Shown piece after piece: positions 42,300 to 55,112 of a stretch of 64,000 nucleotides of DNA. Every line of letters begins with the position of its first letter. Position 1 is the stretch's first letter. The translations under genes were made by a program, and so were the position numbers. Origin of the DNA: Streptomyces sp. NBC_01465 (GTDB lineage: Bacteria; Actinomycetota; Actinomycetes; Streptomycetales; Streptomycetaceae); NCBI RefSeq assembly GCF_036227325.1, contig NZ_CP109467.1, positions 248,001 through 312,000 of the forward strand, written 5' to 3'. The notes below the pieces were generated by a model. It searched no databases. It saw only the letters and a program-made list of their open reading frames with translations, and was not told the DNA's origin.

Positions 42300-44628
<2,329 letters not shown>

Positions 44629-46346: not shown

Positions 46347-47387
46347 CTACGCCGATTCCCGTACCACCAGCTCCGGTTCGAAGATCACCGAGGTGGGTTC
46401 GGTACGGACTCCCTCGACGCACTCCTGGAGCAGCTGCGCCATCGTCGCGGCCATCTCCTCCACCGGCTGACGGACCGTGGTCAGCCGGGGCGTGCAGGTG
46501 ACCGCGACGCTGGAGTCGTCGAAGCCGACGACGGCGACGTCCTCCGGCACACGTCTGCCCTGTTCCCTGAGGACCTGGCAGACCCCCTGGGCCATGAGGT
46601 CGTTGGCCGCGAACACCCCGTCGATGTCCGGGTGTTCACCGAGCAGCCGGGCCATCGCCCGCGCCCCGCTGTCGAGCGTGAAGCCGCCTTCGGCGATCGG
46701 TACGTACGGGATGCCGCCGCGCTCCATCCCGTCGCGGAACCCGGCCAGCCGCTCCTGGCCCGCGGGGAGGTCCAGCGGTCCCGACACCGTGGCGACGCGG
46801 CGCCGGCCTCGCTGCAGCAGGTAGTCGGCGGCGATCCGGCCGCCGTTGCGGTGCGCCAGGTCGACGTAGCTGACCGGCGCGGGCAGGGCGGGCCGGGCGA
46901 AGCACACCGTGGGCAGCCGCTCGGCGGCGAGCAGTGCGGGCAACGGGTCCTCGGCGTGGGTGGAGACCACGAGCGCGCCGTCGGCGCTGCCCTGGCGCAG
47001 GTAGTTCACGACCTGCTTCCGTGCGCTCTCCGTCTCGGCGAACATCAGCACCGGGTGCATCGAGCGCGGTCGCAGATAGCCGACCACGCCGCTCACGACC
47101 CTCCCGAAGAACGGGTCGGCGAACACCCGGGCGGCGAAGGCGTTCTGGCCGCCGCCCCCCTCGTCGCCCGCGCCGGACACGACGAGGGCTATGGTCTCCG
47201 CCCGCCGGGTCACCAGGGCCCTGGCCGCCCGGTTGGGGGCGTAACCGGTCCGCTCGATCGCCTGGCGCACCTGGTCCTGGATGACCGGGTCCACATTCCG
47301 TACGCCGTTGATGACCCTGGACACCGTGGCACGCGAGACGCCCGCCTCCCGCGCCACGTCCTCCAGGGTCGGCAGCTGTCTGTTCAT
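46347..47387 (-). CDS. LacI-family repressor of the GH3/secreted-enzyme regulon
   Basis: A 346-residue LacI regulator. Helix-turn-helix: LEDVAREAGVSRATVSRVIN; hinge GYAPNRAARALVTRR; effector-domain segments GGGGQNAFAARVFADPFF and GVFAANDLMAQGV, VVGFDDSSVAVTCTPRLTTV. It is the second gene of a two-gene operon: its ATG overlaps the GH3 stop (ATGA). Four GAGAGCGCTC palindromes occur at promoters in the following 7 kb; this protein is the obvious candidate to bind them. Confidence 0.93.
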   Translation of the reverse strand: MNRQLPTLEDVAREAGVSRATVSRVINGVRNVDPVIQDQVRQAIERTGYAPNRAARALVTRRAETIALVVSGAGDEGGGGQNAFAARVFADPFFGRVVSGVVGYLRPRSMHPVLMFAETESARKQVVNYLRQGSADGALVVSTHAEDPLPALLAAERLPTVCFARPALPAPVSYVDLAHRNGGRIAADYLLQRGRRRVATVSGPLDLPAGQERLAGFRDGMERGGIPYVPIAEGGFTLDSGARAMARLLGEHPDIDGVFAANDLMAQGVCQVLREQGRRVPEDVAVVGFDDSSVAVTCTPRLTTVRQPVEEMAATMAQLLQECVEGVRTEPTSVIFEPELVVRESA

Positions 47388-49819
47388 TCCCGCACCTTAA
47401 CTTCGATGTCGACGACGGCTGCGAGGGGCAGGTCGCCCGCGGATCTGCCCGCCGCGACCTGGTACGGGCCCGTCTCCGTGACCCAGCCGTGCTCCTCCGG
47501 CGACCAGTGCCGCACTGCCCGTCCGGGAACGGACACCACTGCGGTCACCGTCTCGCCCGGGGCGCACTCCACCGAGGTGTATCCGGCCAGCCAGCGCACG
47601 GGGCGCTCCACCTGCGAGGCGGGCCTGGCCAGATAGACCTGCACCACTTCCTTTCCGGTCCGGCGCCCGGTGTTGCGCAGTCGGACACGGACCTGGAACG
47701 GCTCTCCGGCCGGGGCCGTGCGGGGGACGTCGATCGCCTCGTACTCCCAGATCGTGTAGGCGAGGCCGTGGCCGAACCAGTAGGCGGGCTGCCGTCCGGA
47801 GCGCAGCCAGGCGCGGTGGCCGATGTGCAGGCCTTCCTCGTACGCGAGGACTCCGTTCTCGGGGTGCGTACGGCTCACGGGTACGTCGTCGAGGCGTGCT
47901 CCCCACGTGGTCGGGAGCCGCCCGCCGGGCTCCGTCTGCCCGAACAGCATGTCGGCGAGGCCGGCGCCCGCCTCCTGTCCCGGGAACCAGGTCAGGAGCA
48001 CGGCGCCCGCCTCGTCGCGCCAGGGGAGTTCCACCGGGCCGCCGGTGTTCACGACGGCCACGGTGCGCGGGTTCGCGGCGGCGACGGCGGCGACGAGGGC
48101 GTCCTGGTGGCCGGGGAGGGCGAGGGAGATGCGGTCGTACCCCTCGGACTCGCTGCCCTCGGTGGTGCCGACCACGACGACGACGGCATCCGCGTCCCGG
48201 GCGGCGGTCACGGCTTCGGCGAGGGCGGCTGCCGGGTCGGGGGCGGGTGGTGCGGCGGTCACCACGGTGGCGCGCCCGGTGTCCGGGGCCAGTTCGCGGC
48301 GGGCCACGACGTGCACCGCGTGCCCGCGGGTCAGGTGCGTCCGTCCGTACTGGCAGGGGGGTGCGACATGGACGACGGCCGGATCGTCGGTCAGGCGGGG
48401 GAAGGTGTCGTCGACGAGGGTCCGGCCGTCGACCGCGAGCCACAGCTTCCCGAAGCCGCCGATCCCGAACGTCCACTCGCCGCCGGTGTCGGGCCGCAGC
48501 AGCGCACTGATCTCCACGGTGTGCGCGCCGGGGACCAGGGCGGGCTCCAACAGGCGCCCGGACAGGCGGTGTTCGGCGTAGAGTTCGCGACCGCTCTGGT
48601 CGAGCATGCGCAGGAGTACGCCGCGGTCGCCGGACCGCGGATCGACGCACCGGTCCACGTCCAGGGGCAGCGGTTCGGTGCCTGCGGAGGGGCCGGGGAT
48701 GTGGACGACGCGGGCGCGGCCGCGCAGTTTCGCCCGTATGCCCTCCAGAGGGGTGACCACGCGCGTCGGGAAGACGCCGGCGCTGCCCCCGCCCTGGGAC
48801 CTGGGCTGCGAGGCATGTACGCCGATGACGGCGACGGTCCTCAACTCGTCGGCGTCGAGGGGCAGTACGCCGTTGTTGCGCAGCAGGACGGAGCCCGCGG
48901 CGACGGCTTCGCGCAGCAGTCTGCGCGGGCGTGCGGAGCCGGGCGGCGGTGCGGGGCGGGAGTCGCCCAGGGCGCCGACGCGCTCCGCGAGGCGCAGCAG
49001 TCTGCGGACCTTGTCGTCGACGGCCTCCACGGGGACTTCGCCGGATTCCACGGCCTCCACGAGGCGCTCGCCCCAGACGCCGTCGGGTCCCGGCATCGCC
49101 AGGTCCTGGGCGGCGAGCGCGGTCTCGACGGTGGTGCGCACGGCCCCCCAGTCCGACACCACGAGTCCGTCGAAGCCCCACTCCCCCTTGAGCGGTTCGG
49201 CGAGGAGCGGGTTGGCGGTCATCGTGGCGCCGTTGACGCTGTTGTAGCCGGACATCACGGCCCAGACACCGGCCTCGACGGCCGCCTCGAAGGGGGCCAG
49301 GTACACCTCGCGCAGGGCGCGTTCGCCGACCCGGACGTCGACCGTCAGCCGGTCGGTCTCGGAGTCGTTGGCGACGTAGTGCTTGGCGGTGGCGGCCACG
49401 CCGTGCGCCTGCATCCCGCGGATGAGCGCGGCTCCCGTACGCCCGGCCAGTTCCGGGTCCTCCGCCAGGCACTCGAAGTGGCGGCCGCCGAGCGGCGAGC
49501 GGTGGAGGTTGAGGGTGGGTGCGAGGACGACGTGCACGCCTTTGCGCCGGGCCTCCTGGGCGAGCAGCCCGCCGAGCCGCTCGAGCATCGTCTCGTCCCA
49601 CATCGCGCCGAGTGCGGACGCCGAGGGCAGCAGGGCCGAGGTCCTGCGCTCGTCCCAGGCCTGTCCCCGTACACCTGCGGGACCGTCCGAGGTCACCAAC
49701 TCCCCCAGACCCACGGCCGGTTCCGGATGGGTGCGCCATGTGGCGGCCCCGGTCAGCAGCCGGACCTTCTGCACCAGGCTCAGCTTCTCGGCCAGGCGTG
49801 CGATCTCTTCGTCGGTCAT
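47384..49819 (-). CDS. Beta-glucosidase-type GH3 enzyme with PA14 domain
   Basis: An 811-residue cytoplasmic glycoside hydrolase family 3 enzyme. The (beta/alpha)8 domain has nucleophile Asp223 in LVVSDWGAV and KHYVANDSETDR; a PA14 insert (about 380-500) has LRPDTGGEWTFGIGGFGKLW; the alpha/beta domain carries GTEGSESEGYDR, and a C-terminal Fn3-like domain ends the chain. The PA14 insert is typical of beta-glucosidases acting on small beta-glucan or glycoside oligomers. No signal peptide, so it works on imported oligosaccharides. Preceded by a perfect 14-bp palindrome. Confidence 0.93.
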   Translation of the reverse strand: MTDEEIARLAEKLSLVQKVRLLTGAATWRTHPEPAVGLGELVTSDGPAGVRGQAWDERRTSALLPSASALGAMWDETMLERLGGLLAQEARRKGVHVVLAPTLNLHRSPLGGRHFECLAEDPELAGRTGAALIRGMQAHGVAATAKHYVANDSETDRLTVDVRVGERALREVYLAPFEAAVEAGVWAVMSGYNSVNGATMTANPLLAEPLKGEWGFDGLVVSDWGAVRTTVETALAAQDLAMPGPDGVWGERLVEAVESGEVPVEAVDDKVRRLLRLAERVGALGDSRPAPPPGSARPRRLLREAVAAGSVLLRNNGVLPLDADELRTVAVIGVHASQPRSQGGGSAGVFPTRVVTPLEGIRAKLRGRARVVHIPGPSAGTEPLPLDVDRCVDPRSGDRGVLLRMLDQSGRELYAEHRLSGRLLEPALVPGAHTVEISALLRPDTGGEWTFGIGGFGKLWLAVDGRTLVDDTFPRLTDDPAVVHVAPPCQYGRTHLTRGHAVHVVARRELAPDTGRATVVTAAPPAPDPAAALAEAVTAARDADAVVVVVGTTEGSESEGYDRISLALPGHQDALVAAVAAANPRTVAVVNTGGPVELPWRDEAGAVLLTWFPGQEAGAGLADMLFGQTEPGGRLPTTWGARLDDVPVSRTHPENGVLAYEEGLHIGHRAWLRSGRQPAYWFGHGLAYTIWEYEAIDVPRTAPAGEPFQVRVRLRNTGRRTGKEVVQVYLARPASQVERPVRWLAGYTSVECAPGETVTAVVSVPGRAVRHWSPEEHGWVTETGPYQVAAGRSAGDLPLAAVVDIEVKVRE

Positions 49820-49846
49820 CCTCGCTCCCTCCCCTGTCGCGCTTCC

Positions 49847-49860
49847 GGAGAGCGCTCTCC
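49847..49860. promoter_or_regulatory. LacI operator, site 1 (GH3 gene)
   Basis: GGAGAGCGCTCTCC, a perfect 14-bp palindrome, 28 bases upstream of the GH3 start. A minus-strand TTGACA (49887-49892) with GATCCT as weak -10 (18-base spacer) lies above it, so the site is at the expected transcription start. Confidence 0.85.
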
Positions 49861-49959
49861 ACAGGATCGGGAACAGCAGTGATCCGTGTCAATGCGCTCA
49901 CGGAATCCCGCAGATCATCGTCGGCGGCCGGCGGCCGGCGTCCGCCCGCGCGCGAGCAG

Positions 49960-50000
49960 CCGAGGCTGCCCAGGGACGCCGGGTCCCTGGGCAGCCTCGG
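49960..50000 (-). terminator. Perfect 18-bp hairpin downstream of the secreted GH-A gene
   Basis: CCGAGGCTGCCCAGGGAC, loop GCCGG, GTCCCTGGGCAGCCTCGG: all 18 pairs perfect. It follows the stop at 50011 of the minus-strand glycoside hydrolase and should end that transcript before the GH3 promoter. Confidence 0.85.
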
Positions 50001-50010
50001 GGGAAGCGGA

Positions 50011-51759
50011 TCAGCTGTAGATACCGAACTCGTAGAGGGAGTAGCCGTATCCGGTGCCGCGCGCCGTGCCGTTGACCCGGACGTAGCGGCCCGTGCCGCT
50101 GACGTCGAAGTCGTCGACACCTCCGTTGCCGTTGGCCTCCTCGTGGACGGTCTTCCAGTTCTGGCCGTCGTCGGAGGTCTGGATCGTGTACGCCTTCGCG
50201 TACGACGTCTCCCAGTTGAGCTGCACGTGCTTGAAGGACTGGCTCGTGCCGAGGTCGACCTGGAGCCACTGCGGGTCGCTCCAGTCACTGGCCCAGCGCG
50301 TCTCGTTCTTTCCGTCGACGGCGTTGGCCGCGGGGCACGGGCAGTCGCCGCTGCCGGGCTGGTACGTGGAGGACGTCGCCGTCTTGCCCACCGCGATGTT
50401 GGTCCCGTCCACCGGCGGCGGCACGACCCGTACGGACCGCGTCTCCACGCCCACGTTGCCCTTGCCGTCGGTGGCCTTGACGTAGACCTTCCACACCCCG
50501 GGCTTGTCGGGTGCGGTGACCTTGAGCTTTCCTCCGCCGAGGTCGGTGACCGGCACGGAGGTGAGTGCCTTGTTCTGGTCGATGTAGTTGCTGTTGACCA
50601 GGACCTCGTAGGAGATCTGGTCGCCGTCGGGGTCGCTCACCTGCGTGTTGAGGGTGAGGTCGCCGCCGGCGGGGACCTTGGACGCGTCGCCGTCGACGCT
50701 CATCGACGCGATGACGGGCGGGGTGTTGTCGTGGCTGGTGTCGGCGCCGTACGCCTTCTTCACGGCGTAGTACGAGAGCCGCTTCTGGCCCGCGGGGAGG
50801 AGGTTGAACCAGATGCCGCCGAAGTCGTACTCGGTGCCGTAGTGGAACATCGTGGCGCCGAGCGCGACGCCCTTGTGCCCGGTGATGCAGTTCCAGGCCT
50901 TGGTGTAGCCGGCGGCCTTGGCCTGGTCGGTGGGCTCGTCGGGAACGCCGTTCGCGTCGTCGGGGACCTCCCACTCGCCCGCCGGTCCGGTCTCGGTGAC
51001 GATGTACGGCTTGGTGTAACCGCCCTGCTCCCAGGCCGACTTGACGTCACAGACCGCGTTGTAGGAGTTGACCGCGTACAGGTCGAGGTCGGGGGCGTTC
51101 TTCTTGTAGTAGGGCCAGGCGCCGACCCATGCGTCGGTCGAGGTGACCGGGTGGTTCGGGTCGACGGCGTGGATCTTCTTGGTGATGTCGTTGACGAGGG
51201 TGGTGTAGGCGTCGCGCTGCTTCTCCAGCTCGTCGCCGCTGTAACAGTTCTGCAGACCGAGCACCGACTCGTTGCCGACGTTCCACATCAGCACGCCCGG
51301 GTTGTCCTTGTAGGTGTCCACCCACTTGGGGAACTCGGCGAGCATCTGGTTCTTGTAGTCGGTGTCCGTCAGGTAATTGACGCAGCCGCCGCTGCCCGGA
51401 CCTCCGCCCGGCTGCAGCCAGAAGCCGGCGATCACCTTCACACCATGGCTCGCGGCCGAGTCGAAGAGCGGCTTGCTGGTGGCGTCGGTGCCCCAGGTCC
51501 GGATCGTGTTGACGCCCATCGACTGCAGATCGGGCATGTACTTCTCGGCGTCGGCGACGGACGGCCCCCAGGTCAGGCCCTTGATCTGGTACGGGGCGCC
51601 GTCGACGCTCAGCTCCCAGTTGCCCTGGGATCCCGTCACCTTGACCACGGTGCCCGCGGCGTGCGCGTGCTGGGCGGGCAGGGCGAGCGCGCCCGCCGCG
51701 AGCAGTCCCGCGGTGAGGGGCGCCGCGATGCGGCGGCGGGATGCGTGGGGTCTGTACAT
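50011..51759 (-). CDS. Secreted clan GH-A glycoside hydrolase with CBM32
   Basis: A 582-residue exported enzyme (signal RRRIAAPLTAGLLAAGALAL, cleavage after AHA). The TIM-barrel domain begins YQIKGLTWGPSVADAEKYM and has acid/base Glu164 in WNVGNES and nucleophile Glu256 in IVTETGPAG, the clan-A pair; the overall pattern resembles GH2/GH72-type barrels. An Ig-like/PKD-like linker (about 355-440) and a C-terminal F5/8-type CBM32 (about 445-582; ATSSTYQPGSG, TRWASDWSDPQWLQVDLG) follow. It likely attacks a glucan-type polysaccharide. Operator site 2 lies 44 bases upstream. Confidence 0.82.
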   Translation of the reverse strand: MYRPHASRRRIAAPLTAGLLAAGALALPAQHAHAAGTVVKVTGSQGNWELSVDGAPYQIKGLTWGPSVADAEKYMPDLQSMGVNTIRTWGTDATSKPLFDSAASHGVKVIAGFWLQPGGGPGSGGCVNYLTDTDYKNQMLAEFPKWVDTYKDNPGVLMWNVGNESVLGLQNCYSGDELEKQRDAYTTLVNDITKKIHAVDPNHPVTSTDAWVGAWPYYKKNAPDLDLYAVNSYNAVCDVKSAWEQGGYTKPYIVTETGPAGEWEVPDDANGVPDEPTDQAKAAGYTKAWNCITGHKGVALGATMFHYGTEYDFGGIWFNLLPAGQKRLSYYAVKKAYGADTSHDNTPPVIASMSVDGDASKVPAGGDLTLNTQVSDPDGDQISYEVLVNSNYIDQNKALTSVPVTDLGGGKLKVTAPDKPGVWKVYVKATDGKGNVGVETRSVRVVPPPVDGTNIAVGKTATSSTYQPGSGDCPCPAANAVDGKNETRWASDWSDPQWLQVDLGTSQSFKHVQLNWETSYAKAYTIQTSDDGQNWKTVHEEANGNGGVDDFDVSGTGRYVRVNGTARGTGYGYSLYEFGIYS

Positions 51760-51802
51760 GCCTGGTCTCCTTGTGGGGGGGAGGGGTGAACAAAGTGGGG
51801 GT

Positions 51803-51818
51803 GGGGAGAGCGCTCCCC
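51803..51818. promoter_or_regulatory. LacI operator, site 2 (secreted GH-A gene)
   Basis: GGGGAGAGCGCTCCCC, palindromic with one mismatch pair, 44 bases upstream of the glycoside hydrolase start. A CTGACA -35-like hexamer lies 30 bases above it on the minus strand. Confidence 0.75.
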
Positions 51819-51839
51819 GGGCCCGAACAGGCCCGGGGA
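51814..51839 (-). terminator. Terminator of the DUF1996 gene, overlapping operator site 2
   Basis: TCCCCGGGCC, loop CGAACA, GGCCCGGGGA, a perfect 10-bp hairpin after the DUF1996 stop. Its 3' arm (minus strand) shares bases 51814-51818 with the operator of the next gene. Confidence 0.65.
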
Positions 51840-51865
51840 CACGCCCTGTCAGATACCGCTCCCGG

Positions 51866-52963
51866 TCAGGGGAGTTCGTAGTTCTCGTTGAGCGCGGCTC
51901 CGGCCTCGGGGTGGTTCTGGTCGTAGCCACGCGGGTCGCACTGCAGTCCTCCGACGACGCAGTGGTCCACCATCGCCTTCAGCGTGCGGTCGTCCCACGC
52001 GTTGAAGAAGTCGTAGTGGAAGGAGTGGCCCGTACCGCTCGCCAGCCTGAGCTGCGACATGTCGCCGTTGACGGGGAAGGCCATCTTGAACTCGATCATC
52101 GGCAGGGCCACCGGGTGGTCCGCCGGGCATGCGTTGTTGTTCGTGCCGGGCACCACGATCGGGTACGCCATGTGGCTCTTGTGGTCCGGCGTGTCCAGAT
52201 ACTTTCCGTCCCAGCAACTCGGCGCCTGGAAGCGGATGTTGAGCTGGGTGTCCGGGGTCGTGGGGCAGCTCGCGGGGAATTCGGTGTTGAAGTAGCTGGT
52301 GCCGCACTCCCATCCCTCGACGAATCCGGGGTGGTGACGGAACTCGTCCGCGGTCTGCATCGGACTGCCGACGACGAACCGCAGCCCCTTGGGGAAGGGC
52401 CTGACGCTCGTGTAGTCGGTGACGCCCGCCTTGTAGTAGATGGTCTGCTCGCCCACGGGGAGCACCGGCGTGTTGCCGTTGAGCAGGGTGGGCATCCAGT
52501 ACCCCGACTTGTCGCCGGGTGCCAGACACGTGGTGGGGCCCGAGTCCAGGGAGGCCGTGGTGCTGTTGGCGTCCGTGGTCGTGTTCCCCATAAACGTGTG
52601 GTCGTGGGACTTGCCGGGCTGCCCCGGGTAGACGATCGGGTCGTCCGGCTTGGTGTGCGTCACCGTGCAGTGCGCCTGGAACTCGTGGAAGTAGGCGTGG
52701 GGCGGCTCCTTCGTCGAGGGGTCGACGCCGGTGACCGGCGGGTTGGCGGGGATGTAGCCGTCGCCGTCCGGGTCGTCCCCGGAGGCGACCGTGGACGCCG
52801 CCATCACATGACCCGCATGCGATACGGCCGCGGGCTGCTCGGCCGAACTCTTCGATCCCTGGGCCGCGTTGGCGTTCATCGCCATGCCGCCCACGCCGAG
52901 CGAGGTCAGCAAGAGCGCGCCGGATATCAGGAACCCTGAGACGATCTTCGATCTCCGTGCCAT
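51866..52963 (-). CDS. Secreted DUF1996 protein
   Basis: A 365-residue exported protein. After the signal (KIVSGFLISGALLLTSLGV, cleavage near AANAA) comes the DUF1996 domain: SHDHTFMGNTTTDANSTTA, CGTSYFNTEFPASCP, SCWDGKYLDTPDHKSHMAYP, CPADHPVALPMIEF and SFHYDFFNAWD. Four to six conserved cysteines and several His suggest a disulfide-bonded, possibly metal-containing fold. The family is shared with secreted fungal proteins and has no established activity. It is divergent from the beta-helix gene and lies under operator site 3. Confidence 0.85.
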   Translation of the reverse strand: MARRSKIVSGFLISGALLLTSLGVGGMAMNANAAQGSKSSAEQPAAVSHAGHVMAASTVASGDDPDGDGYIPANPPVTGVDPSTKEPPHAYFHEFQAHCTVTHTKPDDPIVYPGQPGKSHDHTFMGNTTTDANSTTASLDSGPTTCLAPGDKSGYWMPTLLNGNTPVLPVGEQTIYYKAGVTDYTSVRPFPKGLRFVVGSPMQTADEFRHHPGFVEGWECGTSYFNTEFPASCPTTPDTQLNIRFQAPSCWDGKYLDTPDHKSHMAYPIVVPGTNNNACPADHPVALPMIEFKMAFPVNGDMSQLRLASGTGHSFHYDFFNAWDDRTLKAMVDHCVVGGLQCDPRGYDQNHPEAGAALNENYELP

Positions 52964-53082
52964 GGAGACCTCCTGCCATGTCAGTACGGAACCTCGAGGG
53001 GGGTTGGAGGCGGTCCCAGGAAGCTGCTCCAGCGCCCGGGGACCGCCGTACGGAATGCGCGCTCTCATGCAGCGAGGCGAAT

Positions 53083-53098
53083 GGGAGAGCGCTCTCCC
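53083..53098. promoter_or_regulatory. LacI operator, site 3 (DUF1996 gene)
   Basis: GGGAGAGCGCTCTCCC, a perfect 16-bp palindrome. On the minus strand a TTGACA (53132-53137) and AACACT -10 (18-base spacer) lie just above it, so the palindrome covers the transcription start of the DUF1996 gene. It is 120 bases from the start codon. Confidence 0.85.
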
Positions 53099-53259
53099 TG
53101 GTTCCGGAGTGTTCCGGCGATGACGCGACCGTGTCAAGAGTCGATGAACGTCTCATTACGAGCCGTGCGATGCACGCTGTCGCCAACTCCCGTAAAAATT
53201 CAGCGACTCCGGACCCAACTCTTGACGCATCGTTCACACGGATGAAGCATTCGACCCCA

Positions 53260-53273
53260 GGAGAGCGCTCCCC
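53260..53273. promoter_or_regulatory. LacI operator, site 4 (double beta-helix gene)
   Basis: GGAGAGCGCTCCCC, one mismatch pair from perfect, 43 bases before the start of the beta-helix gene. TTGACG at 53222-53227 with a weak -10 near 53246 is just upstream. The 352-base divergent region (52964-53315) holds sites 3 and 4 and no gene. Confidence 0.8.
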
Positions 53274-53315
53274 CACATGCCATCCGTTCAAGTCCTGAAC
53301 CAGGAGAGAACCTTC

Positions 53316-55112
53316 ATGTCCACTCCCCCCACGGACAGCTCGACCTCCCGCAGGGCGGTGCTCGGCGCGATCGCGGCGACGGCCGCCGCGCCGGCCCTCA
53401 TATCCCTCGCGGGCCCCGCTTCGGCGGATTCCGCGGAATCCTCCGTACGGGTCGCCGCCGCAGACCTCCCCGGCGGCGGCGACCTCGGCCCGAACGTGAT
53501 CGTCTTCGACCCCTCCACCGCGGGCATCCAGGCCAGGCTCGACGAGGTCTTCGCCCAGCAGGAGTCCGCGCAGTTCGGCACGGGACGCTATGCGTTCCTG
53601 TTCAAGCCGGGCACGTACAACGGGCTCAACGCCCAACTGGGCTTCTACACCTCGATCGCGGGTCTGGGCCTCTCCCCCGACGACACGACGATCAACGGTG
53701 ATGTGACGGTCGACGCCGGCTGGTTCAACGGCAACGCCACCCAGAACTTCTGGCGCTCCGCGGAGAACCTCGCCCTGAAGCCGGTCAGCGGCACCAACCG
53801 GTGGGCGGTCGCGCAGGCTGCCCCGTTCCGCCGTATGCACATCAAGGGCGATCTCAACCTCGCGCCCAACGGCTACGGCTGGGCCAGCGGCGGCTACATC
53901 GCCGACTCCCGGATCGACGGGCAGGTCGGGCCGTACTCCCAGCAGCAGTGGTACACCCGCGACAGCACGGTGGGCGGCTGGATCAACGCCGTCTGGAACA
54001 TGGTGTTCTCGGGCGTCGAAGGCGCACCCGCCCAGAGCTTCCCCAACCCGCCGTACACCACGCTCGACACCACACCCGTCTCACGTGAGAAGCCGTTCCT
54101 CTACCTCGACGGCGCCGACTACAAGGTGTTCCTGCCCGAGCAGCGGACCAACGCACGCGGCACGACCTGGGGCGCGGGCACCCCGCGCGGCACCTCGCTG
54201 CCGCTGAGCCAGTTCTACGTGGCCAAGCCCGGCGACAGCGCCGCGACCCTCAACGCCGCACTGTCCCAGGGCCTCAACCTCCTTCTGACGCCCGGCATTT
54301 ACCACCTCGACGCACCCGTCCAGGTCGACCGCGCGGGCACCGTGGTCCTCGGGCTCGGCTACGCCACGCTGATCCCCGACAACGGTGTCACCGCGGTGAA
54401 GGTGGCGGACGTCAACGGGGTCAGGCTCGCCGGATTCCTCATCGACGCGGGCCCCGTCAACTCCCCGACCCTGCTGGAGATCGGCCCCCAGGGCGCCGCC
54501 GCCGACCACTCGGCCGACCCGATCACCGTGCAGGACGTCTTCGTCAGGATCGGCGGTGCGGGCGCAGGGAAAGCGACCACCAGCATCGTCGTCAACAGCC
54601 GCCACACGATCATCGACCACACCTGGATCTGGCGTGCGGACCACGGCGCGGGCGTCGGCTGGGAGACCAACCGGGCGGACTACGGACTCGTCGTCAACGG
54701 CGACGACGTCCTGGCCACCGGTCTGTTCGTCGAGCACTTCAACAAGTACGACGTCCACTGGCTGGGCCAGCGCGGGCGCACGGTCTTCTTCCAGAACGAG
54801 AAGGCGTACGACGCCCCCAACCAGGCCGCGGTCCAGGACGGAAGCGTGAAGGGATTCGCCGCGTACAAGGTCGCCGACTCGGTGACCGCCCATGAGGGTT
54901 GGGGTCTGGGAAGCTACTGCAACTTCACCGCCGACTCGACGATCCGTCAGGACCACGGGTTCGCGGCGCCGAACACCCCGGGCGTGAAGTTCCACGGCCT
55001 GCTGGTCGTCTCGCTCGGCGGCATGGGCCAGTACGAGCACGTCATCAATGACATCGGCTCCGCCACGTCGGGCACGTCGACCGTGCCGTCCACGGTGGTC
55101 TCCTACCCCTGA
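53316..55112 (+). CDS. Secreted double beta-helix protein (GH55-like fold)
   Basis: A 598-residue exported protein with Tat signal TSRRAVLGAIAATAAAP. Two beta-helix-like halves: the first starts PNVIVFDPSTAGIQARLDEV, the second after a linker at about residue 320 (GDSAATLNAALSQGLNLLLT, then GIYHLDAPVQVDRAG). The tandem arrangement resembles GH55 exo-beta-1,3-glucanases, although I see no confident catalytic residue. Relatives are often mislabelled adenylyl cyclase; nothing here supports a cyclase. It belongs to the LacI regulon through operator site 4. Start MSTPPTDSS (ATG 53316) has GGAGAG upstream. Confidence 0.75.
   Translation: MSTPPTDSSTSRRAVLGAIAATAAAPALISLAGPASADSAESSVRVAAADLPGGGDLGPNVIVFDPSTAGIQARLDEVFAQQESAQFGTGRYAFLFKPGTYNGLNAQLGFYTSIAGLGLSPDDTTINGDVTVDAGWFNGNATQNFWRSAENLALKPVSGTNRWAVAQAAPFRRMHIKGDLNLAPNGYGWASGGYIADSRIDGQVGPYSQQQWYTRDSTVGGWINAVWNMVFSGVEGAPAQSFPNPPYTTLDTTPVSREKPFLYLDGADYKVFLPEQRTNARGTTWGAGTPRGTSLPLSQFYVAKPGDSAATLNAALSQGLNLLLTPGIYHLDAPVQVDRAGTVVLGLGYATLIPDNGVTAVKVADVNGVRLAGFLIDAGPVNSPTLLEIGPQGAAADHSADPITVQDVFVRIGGAGAGKATTSIVVNSRHTIIDHTWIWRADHGAGVGWETNRADYGLVVNGDDVLATGLFVEHFNKYDVHWLGQRGRTVFFQNEKAYDAPNQAAVQDGSVKGFAAYKVADSVTAHEGWGLGSYCNFTADSTIRQDHGFAAPNTPGVKFHGLLVVSLGGMGQYEHVINDIGSATSGTSTVPSTVVSYP

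Follow-up and report, generated by a model that had tools for sequence, protein, structure and literature searches.

The window analysed here is a 64 kb stretch of DNA (C1:248001-312000) from a single-contig Streptomyces genome of 9.14 Mb. It contains the genes of a LacI-family protein (LacI-1), a GH3 beta-glucosidase-type enzyme, a GH158-like glucanase with a CBM32 module, a DUF1996 protein and a GH55 enzyme, and a palindromic operator at four promoters. Judged from the DNA, LacI-1 probably represses the secreted GH55 and GH158-CBM32 enzymes, the DUF1996 protein and the cytosolic GH3 enzyme via the operator GGAGAGCGCTCTCC, and a sister regulon under its paralogue LacI-2 uses TGAGAGCGCTCTCA. 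A preliminary description of this DNA had proposed a four-operator LacI regulon for a beta-glucan. The present analysis supports a LacI regulon for a beta-glucan and narrows its substrate to beta-1,3-glucan because of the GH55 and GH158 families (and GH64 elsewhere). The four window sites stand; the set itself is wider, extending to a locus 124 kb away, and is apparently split between two LacI proteins.

Genes and operators in the window

The palindrome is present at each of the four promoters for which it had been described. The window has exactly four occurrences of GAGAGCGCTC or its complement, with six strand matches (mean of 0.53 and maximum of 2 in shuffled sequences), and the window copies of the 8-bp core GAGCGCTC are these four promoter sites only. 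Genome-wide, GAGAGCGCTC has 26 strand matches against five for the reversed control, and the perfect 12-mer GAGAGCGCTCTC is found at exactly six places against none. Thus, the palindromes are not distributed at random. Counted from the first base of the TTGACN-like or CTGACA hexamer upstream, the core starts after 35 (GH3), 37 (GH158), 43 (DUF1996) and 41 bases (GH55), which fits the distance of 32-39 bases to the palindrome edge given earlier.

LacI-1 combines a LacI helix-turn-helix with a periplasmic-binding-protein-like domain (Pfam). Its start overlaps the stop of the GH3 gene at 47384-47387, so LacI-1 belongs to the GH3 operon, as had been noted. The nearest NCBIfam model of the GH3 enzyme is a beta-glucosidase (752 bits), and the match falls short of the curated single-substrate equivalog cut-off of 1300 bits. 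No signal peptide is seen at its N-terminus, judged by eye, so that the enzyme is probably cytosolic, in line with the inside beta-glucosidase of the preliminary description. The glucan-type hydrolase with CBM32 of that description can be refined: the catalytic domain of the putative glucanase is homologous to GH158 (PDB entry 9oro, GH158, E 5e-33, 118 bits; 6pal, which we take to be GH158 too, E 2e-22), and its CBM32 matches 2rv9 (E 2e-32).

The DUF1996 assignment is confirmed by Pfam with 165.9 bits at a cut-off of 27. No relative of this protein was found in the PDB at E up to 1, its AlphaFold model (mean predicted local distance difference test score, pLDDT, 51.8) is too low in confidence for a fold comparison, and no known chemistry was found for the family, which occurs in fungi too. 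The protein described as a GH55-like double beta-helix matches PDB entry 4pew, presumably a SacteLam55A-type GH55, with 1017 bits over 557 residues (phmmer) and is thus homologous over its full length to a characterised GH55. Its leader is twin-arginine-like by eye, and the start is likely the second ATG, behind AGGAG.

Features of the locus and further perfect operators. Positions are those of the window, except in the last three rows, which give genome positions.
Feature	Position	Strand	Remarks
LacI-1, predicted repressor, 346 residues	46347..47387	-	last gene of GH3 operon; Pfam LacI and Peripla_BP_3
GH3 beta-glucosidase-type enzyme	47384..49819	-	Pfam GH3 N, C and Fn3-like
Operator GAGAGCGCTCTC, GH3-LacI promoter	49848..49859		flanks G..C; perfect 12-mer, one of six in genome
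TTGACA hexamer (-35-like), GH3 promoter	49887..49892	-
Putative secreted GH158-like beta-1,3-glucanase with C-terminal CBM32	50011..51759	-	PDB sequence matches; Pfam F5_F8_type_C
Operator GAGAGCGCTCCC, GH158 promoter	51806..51817
CTGACA hexamer, GH158 promoter	51847..51852	-
DUF1996 protein, 365 residues	51866..52963	-	leader peptide by eye; Pfam PF09362, E 2e-48
Operator GAGAGCGCTCTC, DUF1996 promoter	53085..53096		flanks G..C; perfect 12-mer
TTGACA hexamer, DUF1996 promoter	53132..53137	-
TTGACG hexamer, GH55 promoter	53222..53227	+
Operator GAGAGCGCTCCC, GH55 promoter	53261..53272
GH55 exo-beta-1,3-glucanase-type enzyme	53316..55112	+	phmmer to 4pew
Perfect GAGAGCGCTCTC, CBM32-GH55	173659
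Perfect GAGAGCGCTCTC, GH64 genes	5960475 and 8522907
Perfect GAGAGCGCTCTC, streptogrisin/alpha-lytic-type protease	8364434

The Pfam-matched neighbours (a GMC oxidoreductase, CbtA, a molybdopterin oxidoreductase and a polyketide-cyclase-like protein) look unrelated to the system. The GMC oxidoreductase gene (window 42300-44312) adjoins the locus, is weakly similar to cholesterol oxidases and has no operator.

Conservation and wider set of sites

Loci of relatives were gathered with LacI-1 as query, giving 34 Streptomyces loci and one outgroup; the LacI-1-carrying relatives in this search are Streptomyces. Where the N-terminal part of a gene and its upstream DNA were present, a core is found no more than 350 bases from the start of LacI in 33/33, DUF1996 in 22/23 and GH55 in 20/24 cases. 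In the 34 Streptomyces loci, promoters of locus genes contain 2.00 cores per kb, compared with 0.026 per kb elsewhere. LacI has its own operator in all 33 relatives; the window LacI has none. In most relatives' loci GH158 and GH3 are located downstream of DUF1996 and are probably read together with it. Own sites occur elsewhere before GH158 (genomes G005, G065 and G084, with GG..CC, the ends of GGAGAGCGCTCTCC) and before GH3 (G036 and G107).

In an alignment of 25 rows the 14 columns of the DUF1996 operator GGAGAGCGCTCTCC are 96-100% identical, and the bases just outside 44-68%. TTGAC of the hexamer is 96-100% identical and its last A 84%. The columns of the GH55-side operator are only 52-72% identical, those at the 12-bp site of the window 56-72%. 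This operator is asymmetric in many relatives (loci L031-L062), with the halves GGGAGC and GAGAGC, and the GH55 site of the window is built likewise.

The six perfect 12-mers of this genome belong to GH3-LacI, DUF1996, CBM32-GH55, two GH64 genes and a secreted protease. Four of the 21 places with one mismatch also belong to the set, namely CBM32-GH158-CBM32 (175921), the window GH158 and GH55 and a CBM56-GH55 (8791146); 17 do not. Accordingly, the 27 places with at most one mismatch comprise ten regulon sites, 12 places within predicted genes and five intergenic places without a fitting gene nearby (377976, 4644857, 6421883, 7627003 and 8038879). The site at 7627003 (L016 6004), GGGGAGAGCGCTCCC, precedes a PucR-type regulator gene by 121 bases and is a possible extra LacI-1 site.

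CBM32-GH55 and CBM32-GH158-CBM32, at a distance of 124 kb from the window locus, have the same site form as the window and are probably part of the LacI-1 regulon. Four T..A-flanked sites (two GH64, protease and CBM56-GH55) probably answer to a different LacI. The nearest matches of the CBM32s are modules of glucanase/chitosanases. GH114 (galactosaminidase-type) genes are found near two separate regulon sites (L009 3309-4145 and L020 6529-7338) and would also fit a fungal polysaccharide as target.

The preliminary description found no transporter gene in the locus, and none for sugars is present among the 12 distinct open reading frames scanned between 42 and 57 kb. It further suggested a search for the palindrome near an oligosaccharide ATP-binding cassette (ABC) transporter. 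In this genome no transporter is marked by a perfect 12-mer, and examination of all 27 places led to rejection of the palindrome as a transporter marker here; with the T..A form, such a link is found in three relatives (L101, L110 and L114). Two weaker matches at ABC binding-protein genes are probably due to chance. The centre of the one at 2650848 (L171 7849) is broken; this match falls within the final part of a ROK-type regulator gene, and the binding-protein gene follows 112 bases later. The other, at 7996663 (L017 6664), covers 10 bp and falls within another binding-protein gene, at its predicted 5' end.

An ABC operon with GH1 is part of the LacI-1 locus in G002 (binding protein by Pfam); the LacI-1 locus of G005 contains a binding protein, permease and GH1, and that of G004 a permease plus GH1. 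An orthologue of the G002 binding protein (76%) is encoded in this genome at 8.222 Mb, and no GAGAGCGCTC site is near it. It belongs to an ABC transporter-GH1 operon (L170 5369-9958; 8.219-8.224 Mb) that lacks the palindrome and is a candidate for uptake under a different regulator. At 25%, the ABC genes of L009 do not correspond to the G002 type. In G004, G005 and G006, T-flanked sites next to LacI-2 are shared by an ABC transporter and GH81; the GH81-side binding protein has no orthologue in this genome, the best matches being 47% and 45% identical.

Two operator forms and two LacI paralogues

LacI-2 is a paralogue of LacI-1 with 45% identity. The operators GGAGAGCGCTCTCC and TGAGAGCGCTCTCA have 12 bp in common and differ by a single base pair in each half-site, at position 7. 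Across the genus, GGAGAGCGCTCTCC accompanies LacI-1, GH55, GH158, DUF1996 and GH3, and TGAGAGCGCTCTCA accompanies LacI-2, GH64, GH16, GH81, protease and transporter genes. Position 7 is mostly G..C or A..T at GH55, GH158, DUF1996, GH3 and LacI-1 sites and T or A at GH64, GH16, GH81, protease, LacI-2 and ABC binding-protein sites.

Co-occurrence was analysed in 121 Streptomyces genomes, with LacI-1 called at E<=1e-100, which takes in a 53-57% clade (LacI-1b), and LacI-2 at E<=1e-110. LacI-1 and GGAGAGCGCTCTCC are both present in 45 genomes and both missing in 67, with six genomes having only the LacI and three only the site (p 7e-23). The corresponding numbers for LacI-2 and TGAGAGCGCTCTCA are 99, 15, four and three (p 5e-13). 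The cross pairs are not associated in these genomes (p 0.80 and 0.31).

Flanks were additionally surveyed with the 12-mer alone at 48 of 49 places from eight genomes and at the six places of this genome. Families were assigned by BLAST against proteins of our own choice, the first class following the window genes. In this class (14 sites, including two at a DUF1996-like gene with 44% identity) the flanks are G..C at ten, A..T at three and G..A at one site, and 13/14 are without T at -7 or A at +7. The 30 sites of other families all have one or both of these bases (22 T..A, eight one-sided T or A). Nine of ten sites without family are T..A and one is C..G. The sampled T..A sites (n=20) precede GH64 (8), GH16 (5), protease (3), GH81 (2) and a Pfam-less protein (1), with no gene in range in one case; 0/20 lie before families of the window locus. 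Of 24 sampled GG..CC sites in 20 loci, 23 lie before these families and one has none in range. A Pfam-less protein of ~460 residues recurs behind T..A sites (L094 2744-4123, L089 and L131) and may be a member of the LacI-2 set.

LacI-1 and LacI-2 have the same recognition helix, SRATVSRV, in their consensus. The loop after the helix is NGGxGV in LacI-2 (12 distinct N-termini) and NGVRNV in LacI-1 (33 distinct N-termini). In CebR, represented by a single sequence, the helix differs and residue 18 is G; it is A in LacI-1 and LacI-2. In LacI numbering and with the contacts of that protein, residue 18 and residues 27-29 presumably read operator positions 5 and 7. A third LacI clade (~55% to LacI-1) is found beside a DUF1996-like gene (L106 5216-8082) and beside GH55 (L165), with the flanks A..T, G..C or A..C.

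Proposed regulation and known systems

Repressors of the LacI family are known to occupy the start site and to come off the DNA once a sugar is bound. Their targets are palindromes with a central CG, and sites of this kind are present and conserved at the promoters described here. From the sites, their conservation and their co-occurrence with LacI-1 we infer binding and repression of this kind: LacI-1 would occupy operators of the GGAGAGCGCTCTCC type where transcription starts and repress the genes. Short beta-1,3-gluco-oligosaccharides would be released from fungal or similar glucan, enter through a transporter encoded elsewhere and bind LacI-1, which would leave the DNA. The GH3 enzyme would then cut the imported sugar to glucose. 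Like this order of events, we infer the inducer, which is likely a short beta-1,3-gluco-oligosaccharide. The sister LacI-2 regulon would comprise GH64, GH16, GH81, a streptogrisin-type protease and, in some species, an ABC transporter.

The chances are about even for a more far-reaching interpretation, a ladder of paralogues that differ by one base pair per half-site (CebR TGGGAGC, LacI-2 TGAGAGC, LacI-1 GGAGAGC) and run insulated programmes. Position 5 would be determined by helix residue 18 and position 7 by the loop that follows the helix. A glucan-trimming set (GH55, GH158, DUF1996 and GH3) would be separated from a wall-lysing set (GH64, GH16, GH81 and protease), and the secreted DUF1996 protein would act on beta-1,3-glucan by an unspecified chemistry.

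Several points weigh against the assignment of these genes to LacI-1. The GH158 operator is missing in 24/24 and the GH3 operator in 17/18 cases of the 34-locus Streptomyces set. Six LacI-1 genomes have no perfect GG..CC site; in five of them (L160, L162, L163, L164 and L165) a near variant is found at LacI, DUF1996 or GH55, and L161 has none nearby. G037 and G053 have GG..CC before a GH55 and lack LacI-1 (G040 left out). LacI-2 of this genome has no operator of this kind near it. The CBM56-GH55 of this genome has a T..A site despite being a GH55. The p values overstate the evidence because the genomes are related and the tests ignore kinship, and part of the co-occurrence of LacI-1 with its targets is joint inheritance because they are often neighbours. 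In the parts of the source available, proteomics of SirexAA-E reports a GH55 laminarinase in the supernatant of glucose-grown cells (PMC12772271), which sits badly with tight glucan-specific repression. The GG..CC site before an ABC operon in Streptosporangium roseum, as given in the portion of PMC3377646 consulted, indicates that the division by gene type need not hold outside the genus.

Beta-1,3-glucan is one of the main polymers of fungal walls. Laminarin-type glucan in general is a substrate of GH55 and GH158, and plant callose or algal laminarin is a possible, if rather doubtful, target instead of the fungal wall. The SirexAA-E relative of the window GH55 is indeed called a laminarinase in the text seen of PMC12772271. 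The secreted protease, GH64 and the glucanase/chitosanase-like CBM32s suit a fungal wall better, without being decisive.

A single repressor for all GAGAGCGCTCTC sites, with LacI-2 or CebR controlling the window sites too and the flanks as neutral variation, would agree with the identical recognition helix and the 12 shared base pairs, and cross-binding in vitro is likely. Nevertheless, this explanation is improbable. Of the 60 genomes with LacI-2 and without LacI-1, 57 have T..A and only three GG..CC sites, and the ten genomes with neither LacI have none of the GG..CC form and one T..A. Furthermore, gene families are unmixed between the forms in the sampled sites; in the 12-mer survey one GH55 site is G..A, and the CBM56-GH55 of this genome is T..A.

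Inheritance of one gene cluster as a block could account for the co-occurrence of LacI-1 and GG..CC, as LacI-1, GH55, DUF1996 and GH158 are neighbours in most relatives' loci. This is very unlikely to be the whole cause, since CBM32-GH55 has GG..CC far from LacI-1 both here (124 kb) and in G005, the scattered LacI-2 targets follow the same pattern, and the site before LacI persists where DUF1996, GH158 and GH3 are absent (L042 and L062). Chance palindromes, in favour of which nothing was found, are practically excluded by shuffles, reversed controls, conservation and co-occurrence.

If LacI-1 exerts this control, beta-1,3-glucan use in many Streptomyces would have a candidate repressor, an operator and a named set of targets, which bears on how these bacteria may attack fungal walls. 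DUF1996 would be tied to beta-1,3-glucan breakdown. The two operator forms offer a natural test of how duplicated repressors may avoid cross-talk via one base pair.

A search of the open-access PMC literature for the exact palindromes yielded PMC3377646 as the only relevant source. The part available of this 2012 paper treats these sites as CelR-like and names neither a beta-1,3-glucan regulon nor a division between two repressors. It lists GGAGAGCGCTCTCC in S. roseum (Sros_3721-3725 and Sros_7173) before LacI, two CBM32 proteins and GH3, in a locus that looks homologous to that of the window, and before the ABC transporter operon. In Catenulispora acidiphila (Caci_5330 and Caci_6684) it gives TGAGAGCGCTCTCA before two GH16 genes, an ABC operon and a LacI gene accompanied by a GH5-family gene.

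The GH158 glucanases (9oro and 6pal) match the window protein in the catalytic domain; the latter is distant from them and adds CBM32. For the SacteLam55A-type GH55, regulation is described in the consulted part of PMC12772271 only as presence in the glucose-grown supernatant.

The closest regulatory parallel is CebR/CelR, which, according to the sections seen of PMC4898821 and PMC3377646, is also an actinobacterial LacI-family repressor with a 14-bp palindrome of the same centre (cello-oligosaccharide operator TGGGAGCGCTCCCA) and controls scattered secreted glycoside hydrolases and a cytosolic beta-glucosidase. This genome has a separate CebR-like gene at 2.81 Mb, which has a TGGGAGCGCTCCCA site of its own. 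None of the ten exact genomic places of GGGAGCGCTCCC lies in the window, where two sites are one mismatch off, and no cello-oligosaccharide ABC transporter, a CebR/CelR trait, is linked to the locus in the 12 open reading frames between 42 and 57 kb. In contrast to CebR/CelR, half-site position 5 is A instead of G here, position 7 of the LacI-1 sites is G instead of T, and the enzymes belong to beta-1,3-glucanase families.

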